Of a DNA stretch of 50,140 nt, positions 43,318 through 50,140 are shown piece by piece. Positions within the stretch are counted from its first letter, which is position 1; every line of letters starts with the position of its first letter. The DNA is from Lentimicrobium sp. L6. Its GTDB lineage: Bacteria; Bacteroidota; Bacteroidia; Bacteroidales; UBA12170. The translations under genes and the position numbers were made by a program. Below the pieces are notes generated by a model. That model searched no databases. It was not told the DNA's origin and worked only from the letters and a program-made list of their open reading frames with translations. Where the stretch lies: NCBI RefSeq assembly GCF_013166655.1, contig NZ_JABKCA010000039.1, positions 1 through 50,140 of the forward strand, in the 5' to 3' direction.

Positions 43318-44223
43318 TTAAAACAAATCTTCCAATGATAAATAGCGTTCCCCAGTATCATAAGCAAAAGTCAATACTCGTTTCCCGACCAATTGTTCTT
43401 GTATTTGATGAATGGCAGCAAGGGAAGCGCCTGTGGAAATTCCGATAAATAAACCTTCTTCTAAAGCAGCTCTTTGGGTGAATAAATAAGCCTCCTCCTT
43501 TGTTATTTTAATCACTTCGTCTAAGATTTCTGTATTTAGATTCTTGGGAATGAATCCAGCTCCAATGCCTTGGATGGCATGAGGTCCAGCTTTACCTTCG
43601 CTTATAAAGGGGGAGTCGCTTGGTTCTACTGCGATTACTTTTAGGTTTGGCCAATGCTTCTTTAACTCTAAGGCTATACCACTAATATGTCCACCTGTTC
43701 CCACTCCACTTATCAAAACATCTAATCCCTCTGGAAAGTCATTTATGATTTCTTGTGCTGTAGTTTGACTATGTATTTCAGGGTTGGCAGGATTTTCGAA
43801 CTGCATGGGCATCCAAGCATTTAAGTCGGCTTGCAATTCTTTGGCTTTATCAATGGCACCTTTCATACCTAGTTCTTTTGGGGTGAGTATGATTTCAGCA
43901 CCATAAGCTTTCATAAGTTTTCGCCTTTCTATGGACATGGATTCGGGCATGGTTAATATTAAGCGATATTTTTTTACAGCAGAAACCAGAGCCAATCCTA
44001 TTCCTGTATTTCCCGAAGTGGGTTCTATGATAATACCATTTTTTTTGAGGATTCCTTTGTTTTCGGCATCCGTGATCATGGCTAAAGCAATCCTATCTTT
44101 TATGCTTCCACCAGGATTTTGTTTTTCTAGTTTGACCCAAGCGTCTAAATTGGGTTTAAATAGTCTGTTGATTTGAAGAACTGGAGTATTTCCTATTAAT
44201 TCTAATATATTTTGTTTTTTCAT
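43318..44223 (-). CDS. cysK: Cysteine synthase (O-acetylserine sulfhydrylase)
   Basis: 301 residues, PLP-dependent. It makes cysteine from O-acetylserine and sulfide. PLP lysine K42 in [18 protein letters not shown] near 67-77 (substrate/PLP site), [10 protein letters not shown] glycine loop near 178-187, and EPSDSPF. It is 12 nt after the cysE stop, on the same strand, so both are made from one message controlled by the leader upstream of cysE (45079-45230). Confidence 0.96.
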
Positions 44224-44235
44224 GTCTTTTCGTTT

Positions 44236-45078
44236 TTAGATGACAAAGTCAATCTTATCTTTTTGTTCTTGTTGGTTATTTCTTAAATGAATCTTAGCTT
44301 GATTTAGAACCACAGAATGGGGAGCTACAGACTGAGTAAGCCAAACATTTCCGCCGATGGTTGAATGATGGCCAATGATAGTATCTCCACCAAGAATTGT
44401 AGAGCCTGCATAAATCACGGTATGATCTTCGATGCTTGGATGTCGCTTCTTACCTCCTAAACTCTTCGAAACACTCAAAGCGCCAAGCGTTACTCCTTGA
44501 TATATCTTTACATGTTTACCAATTTCGGTAGTTTCTCCAATCACGATACCCGTGCCATGATCTATACAAAAAGACTCCCCAATTTTAGCATGGGCATGAA
44601 TATCGATTCCTGTTTTGCTGTGGGAAAATTCGGTGAGCATTCGGGGAATGATAGTCACTGATAAATTATTCAGAACATGAGCAATTCGATAGACTAAAAT
44701 GGCATAGAAACCAGGATATGATATAATAACCTCCTCTATGGATTTTGCTGCTGGATCGCCTTCATAAATCGCCGTGGCATCTTTGATCAAGGTCTCATAG
44801 ATTTTAGGTAACTCTTCTTTGAATTGAATGATAGGCTCTTTGGTATCCGAAACACCCGAATCATAAGATTCCAGTATTTCTTTTAGAAGAACTAGAATAT
44901 CATCTAGGTTTATTTCTTCATCTTCATTATCACAGAATGATAAAATAGGAAATAGATAGCCTATGGTTTCATTGAGGAAATCATGAACCTTTTTTCTACG
45001 GGGAACTCTGCCTAAGCTGTTTTCCAAAAACTGACCACGGGATTGTATAAAGTTGTTTTTTCTCATTTTTTCTAGCAT
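44236..45078 (-). CDS. cysE: Serine O-acetyltransferase
   Basis: 280 residues from ATG 45078 (a second in-frame ATG is 12 bases further in at 45066). It makes O-acetylserine, the first committed step of cysteine synthesis. The C-terminal half is a left-handed beta-helix: FCIDHGTGIVIGETTEIGKHVKIYQ (split here: FCIDHGTGIVIGETT, EIGKHVKIYQ), VTLGALS, HPSIEDHTVIYAGSTILGGD. The N-terminus is an extended helical domain of the EpsC/SrpH type. A terminator U-run ends at base 45079, directly before the ATG, so the gene is expressed only when that hairpin does not form. A 24-codon in-frame extension reading back through the hairpin (to 45150) is rejected. Confidence 0.95.
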   Translation of the reverse strand: MLEKMRKNNFIQSRGQFLENSLGRVPRRKKVHDFLNETIGYLFPILSFCDNEDEEINLDDILVLLKEILESYDSGVSDTKEPIIQFKEELPKIYETLIKDATAIYEGDPAAKSIEEVIISYPGFYAILVYRIAHVLNNLSVTIIPRMLTEFSHSKTGIDIHAHAKIGESFCIDHGTGIVIGETTEIGKHVKIYQGVTLGALSVSKSLGGKKRHPSIEDHTVIYAGSTILGGDTIIGHHSTIGGNVWLTQSVAPHSVVLNQAKIHLRNNQQEQKDKIDFVI

Positions 45079-45109
45079 AAAAAAAGCCCTCTCGAATTTC
45101 GAAAGGGCT
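45079..45109 (-). terminator. Attenuator terminator immediately before cysE
   Basis: On the minus strand AGCCCTTTCGAA and TTCGAGAGGGCT form a stem of about 10 pairs with one G-U, followed by TTTTTTT that abuts the cysE ATG at 45078. It sits between a Cys-rich leader frame and cysE, so it would stop transcription before the genes rather than after them. Confidence 0.9.
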
Positions 45110-45206
45110 GTATATATTAATATCTTGATTTCTAAATTTCTCGAATACACATCACCCTATCACTATTGGTTTCCCAAGAGCAACAACAATTATTAGTAAT
45201 GTGTAT
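45098..45206 (-). promoter_or_regulatory. Cysteine attenuator: competing leader RNA stems
   Basis: Segment 1 (ATACACATTAC, 45206-45196) pairs with segment 2 (GTGATGTGTAT, 45155-45145) over 11 bp with one G-U. Its loop holds the Cys codons of the leader peptide. Segment 2 continues into TTCGAGA (45145-45139), which can instead pair over 7 bp with TTTCGAA (45104-45098), the 5' arm of the terminator. Stem 1:2 and the terminator can coexist; antiterminator 2:3 excludes both. A ribosome stalled on the Cys codons would cover segment 1 and favour 2:3; one that reaches the stop codon at 45134-45132 would cover segment 2 and let the terminator form. Confidence 0.8.
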
Positions 45207-45218
45207 GTTTTTTATCAT
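45132..45218 (-). CDS. Cys-rich leader peptide of the cysE-cysK operon
   Basis: A 28-codon frame, ATG at 45218-45216 and TAG at 45134-45132. Codons 11-13 are TGT TGT TGC (Cys-Cys-Cys) and codon 24 is also Cys; four Cys in 28 codons is far above the average. It begins 4 nt after a TACTTTTG promoter box, so the message may be leaderless. Its stop lies just after the antiterminator strand. I predict it works by translation of its Cys codons, not by its product. Known leader-peptide attenuators of amino-acid operons have the same layout; one for cysteine in Bacteroidota is not something I know of. Confidence 0.82.
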   Translation of the reverse strand: MIKNIHITNNCCCSWETNSDRVMCIREI

Positions 45219-45222
45219 GGGG

Positions 45223-45230
45223 CAAAAGTA
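45223..45230 (-). promoter_or_regulatory. -7 box of the cys leader
   Basis: TACTTTTG on the minus strand, exact TAnnTTTG. The leader ATG follows after four C residues. A -33 TTTG is not clear; ATTG at 45247-45250 gives a short 16-nt spacer. Confidence 0.65.
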
Positions 45231-45284
45231 TTGATTATTTGGTTTTCAATAAATAGATGGCATGTTAATTTATTCCTTTTTTAC

Positions 45285-45322
45285 CATCCACTTCATTAAA
45301 GATATCAATAATGAAGTGGATG
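45285..45322. repeat. Perfect 14-bp inverted repeat between the cys operon and GH16 gene
   Basis: CATCCACTTCATTA (45285-45298) and its exact reverse complement (45309-45322) flank a 10-nt centre, AAGATATCAA. No T-run follows on either strand. The position, about 55 bp upstream of the cys -7 box and 280 bp upstream of the GH16 ATG, would suit an operator for either direction. From 45323 to 45601 I see no gene or clear TAnnTTTG box. Confidence 0.55.
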
Positions 45323-45601: not shown

Positions 45602-47383
45602 ATGAGCAATACTTTACATTATTTATTTATCCATGTTTTTGTTTTTTTATTTGTTGTTAATGCTTCTTCCCAAGTAGGCGAAGTAATCTGGCAAGAAGAC
45701 TTTAATAATCTTGATAATTGGATCATTGAGACTGGAAATGGTAGTTGGGGATGGGGTAATGGTGAATTAGAGTTTTATCAGAGCGATAATGTCACTATTG
45801 AGGAAGTTTCAGAAGAACCTGGGAATTTCGCCCTTCGTATAACAGCACGACAAGAATCAGGTGCAAATATAGTGGACCAATGGGGAAACCCTTTAAATTA
45901 CACTTCCGGGAGAATCAATACCAAATCGAAAGTTTCTCTTCAATATGGAGTGGTAGAAACTCGTGTTCGAATTCCTAATATAGATTTAGGTGGTTGGCCA
46001 GCAGTTTGGATGTTAGGCACCGCCAATTATTCATGGCCAACTAAAGGAGAAATAGACATCATGGAAATGGGACATCAGCAAGCTTTCAGAGACTTACATG
46101 ATGGACATAATGGAGGCAATGGATTAAATAATTCTACAGTGAATCAAATGGTTGGTTCTAATGCCATCTTTTTTAGTGAGGATGCTATAAATCCTGATAA
46201 TCCTTCTGGAGCAGCTAGCCTTGCATGGGATCCGGATGATGAGTACTGCAGACCTTATTTTAATCATAACGATCCGCTTATTGATAGATACCTTATTTAC
46301 CGTACCTATTGGGATGAAAATAGTTTGAGATTTACAGTAATCGATAATGATATTGAATATGATTTATTTGCTGAGACATTCTACATAGATTCTATTAGTG
46401 ATGAGTTTAATCAACCTTTTTTCTTGATTGTAAATATGGCTATTGGCGGAGCCTTTACAGATGCTTATAATCTTGGCGACCCAGGGAGTGGAGAGGCTGT
46501 TTCAATGCCTTTTGATGCTGAAATGTATGTTGATTATATAAAAGTAATGGAATGGAATGGTCAGGGTAGTGTTAATGTTGGACCTCCTCAAGAACAATTA
46601 GAAACATTTGGAATATTTACCGACGAAACACCCACTAATAATGCCCTATTTACTAATGAACCTGCACATATTTATGTTTGGGAAGGTACGCTATCAGATG
46701 GTAATATCCCACCTTACGAAGGAGAAAATGGCATTAGTTGGATTAGTAATGGTTTAGGTTGGTTTGGTGCTGGAATTATGTCGGCTCAACCTATTAATCT
46801 TTTGGGTTTTGGCGAAGGATATTTGAAATTCAGAATTAAAATTCCTGCTCATGTGAGTTTTCAGATAGGCGTGATTGATGCTTGGGGAAATCAAAATTAC
46901 GTAGAGTTTCCAGCGAACCAAACTAAATATGATTTGGTAAGGAATGGTGAGTGGGGACAAGCCAGCATTCCCATCTCTGATTTAAGAGGAGAATTCATCG
47001 ATCTGCGGATGTTAAGTTATGAATTTGTAATACTTGAGGTGAATGGAGCCAATTGTGAGTTTGCCTTAGATGATATTTATTATGATGGGGGAATGGTGGC
47101 TGCCATTGAGACACAAAACCTAAGTAATAAATCTTTATTATCTATAAATCCAAATCCCGTAATGACTCAGGCTACTGTTGCATTTGAAATAGAGGACTCT
47201 GGTGATATAGAAATGATAGTTTATGACATCTTTGGTCGTAAAATAGAAGATTTGGTCAAAGGTTTTAGACCATCAGGTCAATATGAGTTTACTTGGAGTC
47301 CTAAAAATTTAAATCCTGGAATTTATTTCATTCACTTAAAAACAGCTTCTGGTGAGGTAGTTAAGAAAACTATTATCCAATAA
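45602..47383 (+). CDS. Glycoside hydrolase family 16 enzyme, T9SS-sorted
   Basis: 593 residues. Signal peptide 1-23 (ending in ASSQ). GH16 domain at about 27-320 with the catalytic motif E150-I-D152-I-M-E155 (nucleophile and acid/base glutamates) and substrate-site aromatic residues (GGWPAVWMLG). The motif form ExDxxE with one inserted residue is the laminarinase-like type, so beta-1,3-glucan or a similar polysaccharide is the likely substrate. A carbohydrate-binding-like beta-sandwich at about 335-500 (ending FALDDIYYDGG) precedes a C-terminal T9SS sorting domain (INPNPVMTQ ... GIYFIHLKT). It is the first gene of a same-strand cluster with the next two. Confidence 0.95.
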   Translation: MSNTLHYLFIHVFVFLFVVNASSQVGEVIWQEDFNNLDNWIIETGNGSWGWGNGELEFYQSDNVTIEEVSEEPGNFALRITARQESGANIVDQWGNPLNYTSGRINTKSKVSLQYGVVETRVRIPNIDLGGWPAVWMLGTANYSWPTKGEIDIMEMGHQQAFRDLHDGHNGGNGLNNSTVNQMVGSNAIFFSEDAINPDNPSGAASLAWDPDDEYCRPYFNHNDPLIDRYLIYRTYWDENSLRFTVIDNDIEYDLFAETFYIDSISDEFNQPFFLIVNMAIGGAFTDAYNLGDPGSGEAVSMPFDAEMYVDYIKVMEWNGQGSVNVGPPQEQLETFGIFTDETPTNNALFTNEPAHIYVWEGTLSDGNIPPYEGENGISWISNGLGWFGAGIMSAQPINLLGFGEGYLKFRIKIPAHVSFQIGVIDAWGNQNYVEFPANQTKYDLVRNGEWGQASIPISDLRGEFIDLRMLSYEFVILEVNGANCEFALDDIYYDGGMVAAIETQNLSNKSLLSINPNPVMTQATVAFEIEDSGDIEMIVYDIFGRKIEDLVKGFRPSGQYEFTWSPKNLNPGIYFIHLKTASGEVVKKTIIQ

Positions 47384-48801: not shown

Positions 48802-50140
48802 ATGAAATATATAAGTACGTTTATTTTAATATTTTCACTGGCTTTCGGTTTTGCTCAAAATAATCCGATTGATTTTGAAGCTGGTGGAAATGGAGCAGAT
48901 TGGACATGGGCTACCTTCGAAAACAGCACCAACCCTCCCTTAGAAATAATTCCAAATCCTTTTAGTGGTGATGGAAATACCACTACTACAGTCGCTAAAT
49001 TCACAGCTCTAGATGCCGGAATGGATTGGGCAGGTTGTGAAACTCTTGACATTGGCAGTTTTACCTTTGATGAGGACAATAGCCTTATTAAACTTTGGGT
49101 TTATAAAGATATCTTGAGTCAAGTAAAAATCAAACTTGAAGGAACAGGTGGAAATGTTGAAAGTTATGACGTTCTAAATACCCTTACTGGACAATGGGAA
49201 GAATTGACTTTTGATTTTTCAGCTGTAATTGGAAATACCTATAATAAATTGGTCGTTTTTCCTGATTTTGCAGCTAGAGACCAAGATAATATCATTTATT
49301 TTGACGAAATGACTTTTAATGCTGGTTCTGCACCTGCTGCCCCAGTTATCGCAGCTCCAGTTCCAAGTCATGATCAGGCAGATGTAGTTTCCGTTTATAG
49401 CGGAACATATACTGATATTGCTGAAACGAACTTCAATCCAAATTGGGGTCAGTCTACGGCTATTTCTTTTGTTGATGTTGCAGGTAATGAAACCATGAAA
49501 TATGCTAATTTCAACTATCAAGGAATTAATTTAGGTAGTAATGATGGTACAGTACAAGACTTATCAGCGATGGAGTTTTTACATGTAGATATTTGGACCG
49601 CAGATGCCACAGTGGTGAAGTTAACACCTATTAGTGCTAGTACAGGAGAATTTCTTTATGAATTGACTCCTCTGACACAAGGAACATGGAATAGTTATGA
49701 TATTCCAGTAGGTGATTTCACAGATGTTTCCATGGCCGATATTCATCAGTTAAAGTTTGATGGCCAAGCGGGCGTAAATCCATCTAATATATATTTAGAT
49801 AATATTTATTTCTATAAAGAGCCAACAACAGCCACAGAACCAAGTGCAGCGGCACCATTACCAACAGAGGATGCAGAAGATGTAGTCTCTATTTATAGTG
49901 ACAGCTATACAAATCTTGCAGGAACGGATTTTAATCCAGGCTGGGGACAAACAACTGTAGTTAGTAATGAAGATATTGGTGGCAATGAAATGATGAAATA
50001 TGCTAGTTTCAACTATCAAGGAACTCAATTGGATGGTAATCAAGATTTATCAGCCATGGAGTTTTTACATGTTGATATTTGGACAGCAGATGCCACAGTG
50101 GTGAAGTTAACACCTATTAGTGCTAGTACAGGAGAATTTC
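48802..50140 (+). CDS. Secreted protein with tandem carbohydrate-binding-like domains (runs off window)
   Basis: At least 446 residues; open to the window end. Signal peptide 1-19 (AFGFAQ), then a domain like the N-terminal domain of the previous gene (PIDFEAGGNGADWTWATFEN), then at least two copies of a domain like its second (YSGTYTDIAETNFNPNWGQ and YSDSYTNLAGTDFNPGWGQ). The two copies are about 162 residues apart and still about 96 percent identical in DNA over the last 100 bases of the window, so the repeat is recent. Start 21 nt after the previous stop, hence same operon. The C-terminus, where a sorting domain is expected, is outside the window. Confidence 0.88.
   Translation, partial: MKYISTFILIFSLAFGFAQNNPIDFEAGGNGADWTWATFENSTNPPLEIIPNPFSGDGNTTTTVAKFTALDAGMDWAGCETLDIGSFTFDEDNSLIKLWVYKDILSQVKIKLEGTGGNVESYDVLNTLTGQWEELTFDFSAVIGNTYNKLVVFPDFAARDQDNIIYFDEMTFNAGSAPAAPVIAAPVPSHDQADVVSVYSGTYTDIAETNFNPNWGQSTAISFVDVAGNETMKYANFNYQGINLGSNDGTVQDLSAMEFLHVDIWTADATVVKLTPISASTGEFLYELTPLTQGTWNSYDIPVGDFTDVSMADIHQLKFDGQAGVNPSNIYLDNIYFYKEPTTATEPSAAAPLPTEDAEDVVSIYSDSYTNLAGTDFNPGWGQTTVVSNEDIGGNEMMKYASFNYQGTQLDGNQDLSAMEFLHVDIWTADATVVKLTPISASTGEF

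Follow-up and report, generated by a model that had tools for sequence, protein, structure and literature searches.

A very probable cysteine-sensing transcription attenuator upstream of cysE-cysK in Lentimicrobium sp. L6, with counterparts in related genomes

The region preceding the cysE and cysK genes of Lentimicrobium sp. L6 (Bacteroidota) very probably controls their transcription by classical ribosome-mediated attenuation in response to charged tRNA-Cys, i.e., it would belong to the same class of devices as the trp, his, leu, and thr attenuators. We consider this reading of the sequence very probable because a leader frame with a run of Cys codons and a following terminator recur in 24 loci, the antiterminator strand is matched to the terminator 5' arm locus by locus, and the stem that encloses the Cys codons covaries. 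An earlier note on this DNA, made from the letters alone, had proposed the same type of control, and the proposal is supported, as the leader, the Cys codons, the protecting stem, the antiterminator, and the terminator recur and covary in relatives. The elements, their conservation, their covariation, and the alternative pairing are shown by the sequences.

The stretch analyzed (the window; 50,140 nucleotides) comes from a genome of 5.1 Mb. The cysK gene was identified by TIGR01139 (404.4 bits, with a cut-off of 350.95), and cysE by its best NCBIfam match (E 1.1e-43), which lies under the curated cut-off of that model. The features of the locus are as follows.

45223-45230, minus strand: match to the Bacteroidota -7 box TAnnTTTG, TACTTTTG, ending 4 nt 5' of the leader ATG
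45132-45218, minus strand: leader peptide frame MIKNIHITNNCCCSWETNSDRVMCIREI, 28 codons and a stop, with counterparts in 23 other loci
45180-45188, minus strand: control codons Cys11-Cys12-Cys13 (TGT TGT TGC)
45195-45206, minus strand: segment 1, arm 1 of the protecting (pause) hairpin, partner 45156-45145
45157-45186, minus strand: inner hairpin within the protecting stem, its 5' arm containing some of the Cys codons
45148-45163, minus strand: segment 2, antiterminator strand GTGATAGGGTGATGTG, partnered either by segment 1 and the inner arm or by the terminator 5' arm
45099-45111, minus strand: segment 3, terminator 5' arm ACAGCCCTTTCGA, partner of segment 2
45079-45109, minus strand: intrinsic terminator, an 11-bp hairpin (45109-45085) followed by a U-run
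44236-45066, minus strand: cysE, serine O-acetyltransferase, start set by the alignment of relatives, with a further ATG upstream at 45078
43318-44223, minus strand: cysK, cysteine synthase A

The leader RNA of the window (142 nt) folds at -40.5 kcal/mol (z -5.05), a value equaled by none of 200 shuffles. Three elements of the earlier note were found as it had described them: the TAnnTTTG box at 45230-45223, the 28-codon frame on the minus strand (45218-45132) with Cys-Cys-Cys at codons 11-13, and an 11-bp stem around these codons (45206-45196 with 45155-45145). The minimum-energy fold lengthens the latter to 12 bp and adds an inner hairpin that pairs some of the Cys codons. The terminator that the note had placed with its U-run at the cysE ATG is also there (stem 45109-45085, U-run to 45079), but the ATG at 45078, where the U-run ends, is probably not the start of cysE; judging by the alignment with relatives, translation probably starts at 45066.

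Two further details had to be revised. The 7-bp antiterminator pairing proposed in the note (45145-45139 with 45104-45098) scored weak, at -5.0 kcal/mol, and was set aside for this reason; 45163-45148 with 45111-45099 gives -10.4 kcal/mol, and a pairing at this place recurs among relatives. The stop codon of the leader, which the note had put directly behind the antiterminator strand, does not abut the terminator hairpin, which it precedes by 20 nt in the window and by 20-33 nt across the 24 loci. Toward the end of the leader frame, close to segment 2, the window (45149-45147) and several relatives carry one more Cys codon, which may have arisen by chance from the sequence of the stem or may act as an additional control point.

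The TAnnTTTG box is placed at positions -12 to -5 in Flavobacterium by PMC9723704. With the box at these positions, a gap of exactly 4 nt makes the A of the leader AUG the first base of the transcript. Such a gap separates the box from the AUG in 7 of the 24 leaders, the window included (L001 to L005, L013, L045; four families), which is 7 of the 10 leaders having an exact box within 60 nt, and in none of the 19 box-to-gene pairs within the window (frames of at least 100 aa). We therefore predict that the leader peptide in these seven loci is translated leaderless, from an AUG at +1. Short or absent 5' leaders account for 3.7 and 5.5% in the published figures for the phylum.

Relatives of cysE were searched for in capped samples of 99 and 393 genomes and in a named collection (3 loci). 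The larger sample had a match in 191 genomes, from which 60 regions were taken, chosen mostly by best score. A scan of 93 cysE upstream regions gave a terminator-like match in 31 and none in 62. In 19 of the 31 positive loci a leader with a Cys run lies before the terminator, and the other 12 are without one. Relatives that retain the terminator and lack a Cys leader, the case that the earlier note had set against its own reading, are nearly absent: among these 12, only L110 shows what looks like a real terminator close to the start, and it has no Cys frame. A covariance model search of 393 genomes added four more cysE leaders and one cysK leader, and these five loci are therefore not independent. 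In total, a Cys-run leader and a terminator were found at 24 loci (23 cysE, 1 cysK) in at least 14 families of the order, namely 14 families plus two named metagenome genomes.

The Cys run begins at codon 11 in 15 of the 24 leaders, and at least three consecutive Cys codons are present in 17. Leader length is ambiguous for L016, L017, L031, and L054, which have alternative start codons. Three successive Cys codons in a short ATG frame were counted in 20 of 90 cysE upstream regions (the 93 without L014, L021, and L033, too short or unsuitable); shuffles gave 0.22 on average and never more than 2. Two further loci stand outside the set: L006, with a two-Cys frame and a weak terminator match, was read as lying inside the preceding gene and left uncounted, while L098 has a three-Cys leader and, by eye, a hairpin with an interrupted U-run.

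The same survey bears on the possibility that the polycysteine frame acts through translational or Rho-dependent control, as in Mycobacterium, and that the terminator is incidental. Neither the scan nor inspection by eye showed a terminator in five cysE loci that do have Cys runs (L095, L096, L099, L111, L113), four of them with the run at the C-terminus of the frame or close to it, and three-Cys frames among terminator-less loci (6/71, L098 included) exceed the 0.17 expected from shuffles. In the window, however, the Cys run lies approximately 15 codons ahead of the stop, and each of the 24 loci has a terminator, with a 5' arm that matches segment 2, which makes control by the frame without the terminator very unlikely there.

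The terminator-less cysE loci with Cys runs resemble the cysteine leaders of Actinobacteria. Short frames with two Cys codons were also seen at two cysE loci lacking an intrinsic terminator, L093 and L103; at the latter, a 13-base inverted repeat, noticed by eye between the end of the short ..RCCW frame and cysE, is a possible non-terminator control.

Segment 2 follows just 3' of the Cys codons, and its sequence complements that of segment 3, the terminator 5' arm. Summed over the 24 loci, the energy of this 2:3 pairing is -299.6, versus a permuted mean of -242.5 (sd 10.0; 0/10,000 permutations as low) and versus -171.5 with segment 2 shuffled (0/200 as low). For individual loci, 10 or fewer of 200 shuffles are as good in 16/24; the pairing is weak in L002, L004, and L032, where 86, 47, and 137 shuffles of 200, respectively, do as well. 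In the window taken alone it is unremarkable, being equaled by 23 of 200 shuffles, and the evidence is carried by the whole set of loci.

In a model of the stalled state, with the ribosome occupying the first Cys codon, 5.9 to 12 pairs form between segments 2 and 3 in all 24 loci (mean 9.15, versus 5.01 for shuffled sequences), a number that exceeds the shuffled mean in 24/24 and the 95th percentile in 14/24. Without a ribosome, 13 of the 24 leaders give up at least three of these pairs to the 1:2 hairpin, and in the remaining 11 the naked RNA favors 2:3 nearly as much as the stalled RNA (a difference of fewer than 3 pairs). The 1:2 region folds on its own better than shuffles in 22/24 loci (mean z -2.37), the comparison showing no excess for L032 and L112. 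At equilibrium the full-length RNA of nearly all loci still favors the terminator even when stalled, hence the switch must act during transcription. Attenuators are usually seen as acting in this way.

We infer the start of transcription, the translation of the leader, the stalling of the ribosome, and the response to cysteine from these elements, which together suggest the following mechanism. With ample Cys-tRNA, the ribosome would clear the three Cys codons and reach the stop, or the 1:2 hairpin would form; segment 2 would then be hidden, the terminator (3:4) would fold, and transcription would end before cysE-cysK. With scarce Cys-tRNA, the ribosome would stall at codons 11-13 and hold segment 1 and the inner arm apart, so that the freed segment 2 could pair with the terminator 5' arm, RNA polymerase would read through, and cysteine synthesis would be switched on. 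Read-through would depend on timing.

Covariation was assessed in an alignment of 19 loci (A3), which is fitted to the covariance model and hence favors the structure; it excludes the antisense rows of L003, L005, and L045, as well as five of the 24 loci (L013, L108, L112, L116, and L118) to which model R1 gave too low a score or none. Changes on both sides occur at 21 of the 28 structure pairs, and the cells with such changes number 70, versus 26.6 in shuffles (0/500 as many). The score is 0.406 and falls to at most 0.161 when the partners are slid by 1 to 3 columns. An independent MAFFT alignment of nine loci (A1) gives a smaller signal, with 18, 1, and 2 of 500 shuffles as good for covariation, paired cells, and both-sided changes, respectively, and no signal in the pair types (270/500).

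The retention of the RNA pairings through compensating changes also weighs against an arrest peptide, i.e., a nascent peptide whose specific sequence would halt the ribosome when cysteine, or a metabolite related to it, is sensed. The Cys run, often with a nearby Trp or further Cys, is conserved within the genus, as a stalling peptide would have it. Outside the run, however, the leader peptides of the 24 loci diverge and have little in common across families, and we give this explanation only a slight chance.

That the terminator ends an unrelated upstream transcript or a small RNA, with the Cys codons arising by chance, is barely credible. The leader could in principle be a small RNA, and L110 has a terminator before cysE with no Cys frame. 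Against this stand the enrichment of three-Cys frames (20/90 vs. 0.22) and the surroundings of the locus: there is no obvious gene upstream whose transcript the terminator would end, because the gene 5' of the leader (45602-47383, plus strand) is divergent and the sole minus-strand frame of at least 100 aa from 45230 to the window end is exactly 100 aa long, with a TTG start at 49521; we found no convincing minus-strand gene in this interval. A metabolite-binding riboswitch, for which a structured 5' region and a terminator might speak, has next to no probability, given that no Rfam family matches the window at its gathering score (18 matches, each under its own threshold, the best 25.2 vs. 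50, those to Trp_leader and His_leader included) and that the alignment holds no conserved aptamer-like core beyond the Cys codons and the stems.

The divergent neighbor carries a C-terminal secretion sorting domain (Por_Secre_tail). An inverted repeat, ATCCACTTCATT ... AATGAAGTGGAT (45283-45320), is found approximately 50 nt 5' of the promoter box of the leader; it was not seen in L002 and could be an operator.

The covariance model was applied to capped samples, one of 393 genomes and a phylum-wide one of 395. The first search yielded 26 loci beyond those already known: five Cys leaders, nine leaders for other amino acids, one unclear case (L048, single Cys codons before an EamA transporter), and 11 with nothing or unreadable (L059, L061, and L063 unread). 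The leaders for other amino acids include Asn leaders before asnA (L049, L050), Phe/Tyr leaders before pheA (L051) and an aminotransferase (L064), Leu leaders before leuA (L052, L053), an Ile/Val/Leu leader before ilvD (L065), and Trp leaders before trpE (L060) and trpB (L070). Where checked, the downstream gene is a biosynthesis gene that fits the amino acid of the leader. The occurrence of the same architecture with a matching amino acid before asnA, pheA, leuA, ilvD, trpE, and trpB counts in favor of the attenuator reading. In the genome of the window itself, no leader was found in seven of the weaker model matches.

The phylum-wide search gave 29 loci besides the window: nine Cys, Met/Cys, or Met leaders, five Ile/Val leaders, one Asn leader, and 14 with nothing or unreadable (L145 unread). 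Cys leaders precede cysK (L133, L141) and a peroxiredoxin (L135), and one lies near a carbonic anhydrase (L136). Met/Cys leaders were found before O-acetylhomoserine sulfhydrylase (L132, L142), PAPS reductase (L153), and a sulphate-binding protein (L159), and a Met leader before a sulfhydrylase (L156). Two Cys or Met/Cys leaders stand in series at L132, L135, L153, and L159; at L135 the second terminator was identified solely by visual inspection, and the second leader of L159 has a C-terminal Cys run and no terminator. Together with the leaders for other amino acids from the first search, the attenuator-like leaders at L134, L137 to L140, and L149 form a group with runs for Asn, Phe/Tyr, Leu, Ile/Val, and Trp; at these last six loci the genes were named by eye.

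On balance, we lean toward the wider view that Bacteroidota run much of their sulphur assimilation by ribosome-mediated attenuation. In this view, Cys leaders would act on cysE and cysK, and mixed Met/Cys leaders on O-acetylhomoserine sulfhydrylase, cysH, and the uptake of sulphate; two attenuators in series at some loci could integrate two signals; some leaders would begin from an AUG at the first base; and a second class would have C-terminal Cys runs and no terminator. The cysE-cysK arrangement very probably restricts cysteine synthesis to times of shortage. The analysis explains, in a form that can be tested, how cysteine synthesis may be controlled in much of the phylum: a classical attenuator, complete with intrinsic terminator, would here be put to use for cysteine in bacteria that lack Shine-Dalgarno initiation. 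It also leads to the sharp prediction of leader peptides begun at +1. The series before cysH and the sulfhydrylase, if they hold, would be natural two-input switches. The attenuation mechanism itself is textbook knowledge, so that the surprise is limited.

Lopatovskaya 2010 may contain earlier predictions, and Canestrari 2020 is cited on the cysteine leaders of Actinobacteria. In the open-access literature searched, as far as its available text goes, we found no cysteine leader described in Bacteroidota, whether before cysE or cysK or elsewhere (PMC13236596, PMC9031893, PMC2965389, and PMC4833913 included; subscription journals were mostly outside this scope). The cysteine leader thus seems to be undescribed in this phylum, as the earlier note had held, while the attenuator principle is well known. 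The novelty claimed there was nevertheless too strong, since cysteine leaders have been published for other bacteria (PMC1262725, PMC4633059, PMC8632094), and control by leader-peptide attenuation has been proposed by inference for Flavobacterium psychrophilum (PMC9723704) and hinted at in Bacteroides as well as Flavobacterium (PMC9723704, PMC7366714).

Among the systems known, attenuation in F. psychrophilum concerns the same phylum and amino-acid operons, but cysteine is not named in the main-text passages on it (PMC9723704). The actinobacterial leaders, as outlined in PMC1262725, have Cys-codon runs before cysteine and sulphur genes, as here, and those of mycobacteria have the leaderless start (PMC4633059) that we predict for some of our loci; their Cys run, however, lies near the stop codon with no conserved terminator, whereas in the window it occupies codons 11-13 of 28 and a terminator follows. 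The uORFC-8-2 motif before cysS in Rhodobacterales, likened here by its description in PMC8632094, comes from another phylum and precedes another gene, but has tandem Cys codons within the first stem, an intrinsic terminator, and a proposed sensing of Cys-tRNA, as we propose for cysE-cysK. Compared with the trp, his, leu, and thr attenuators, the one proposed here differs in sensing cysteine, in the predicted leader AUG at +1, and in the fact that the Rfam leaders do not match it at gathering score, and it shares with them control codons for the amino acid produced, competing hairpins 1:2, 2:3, and 3:4, and an intrinsic terminator.
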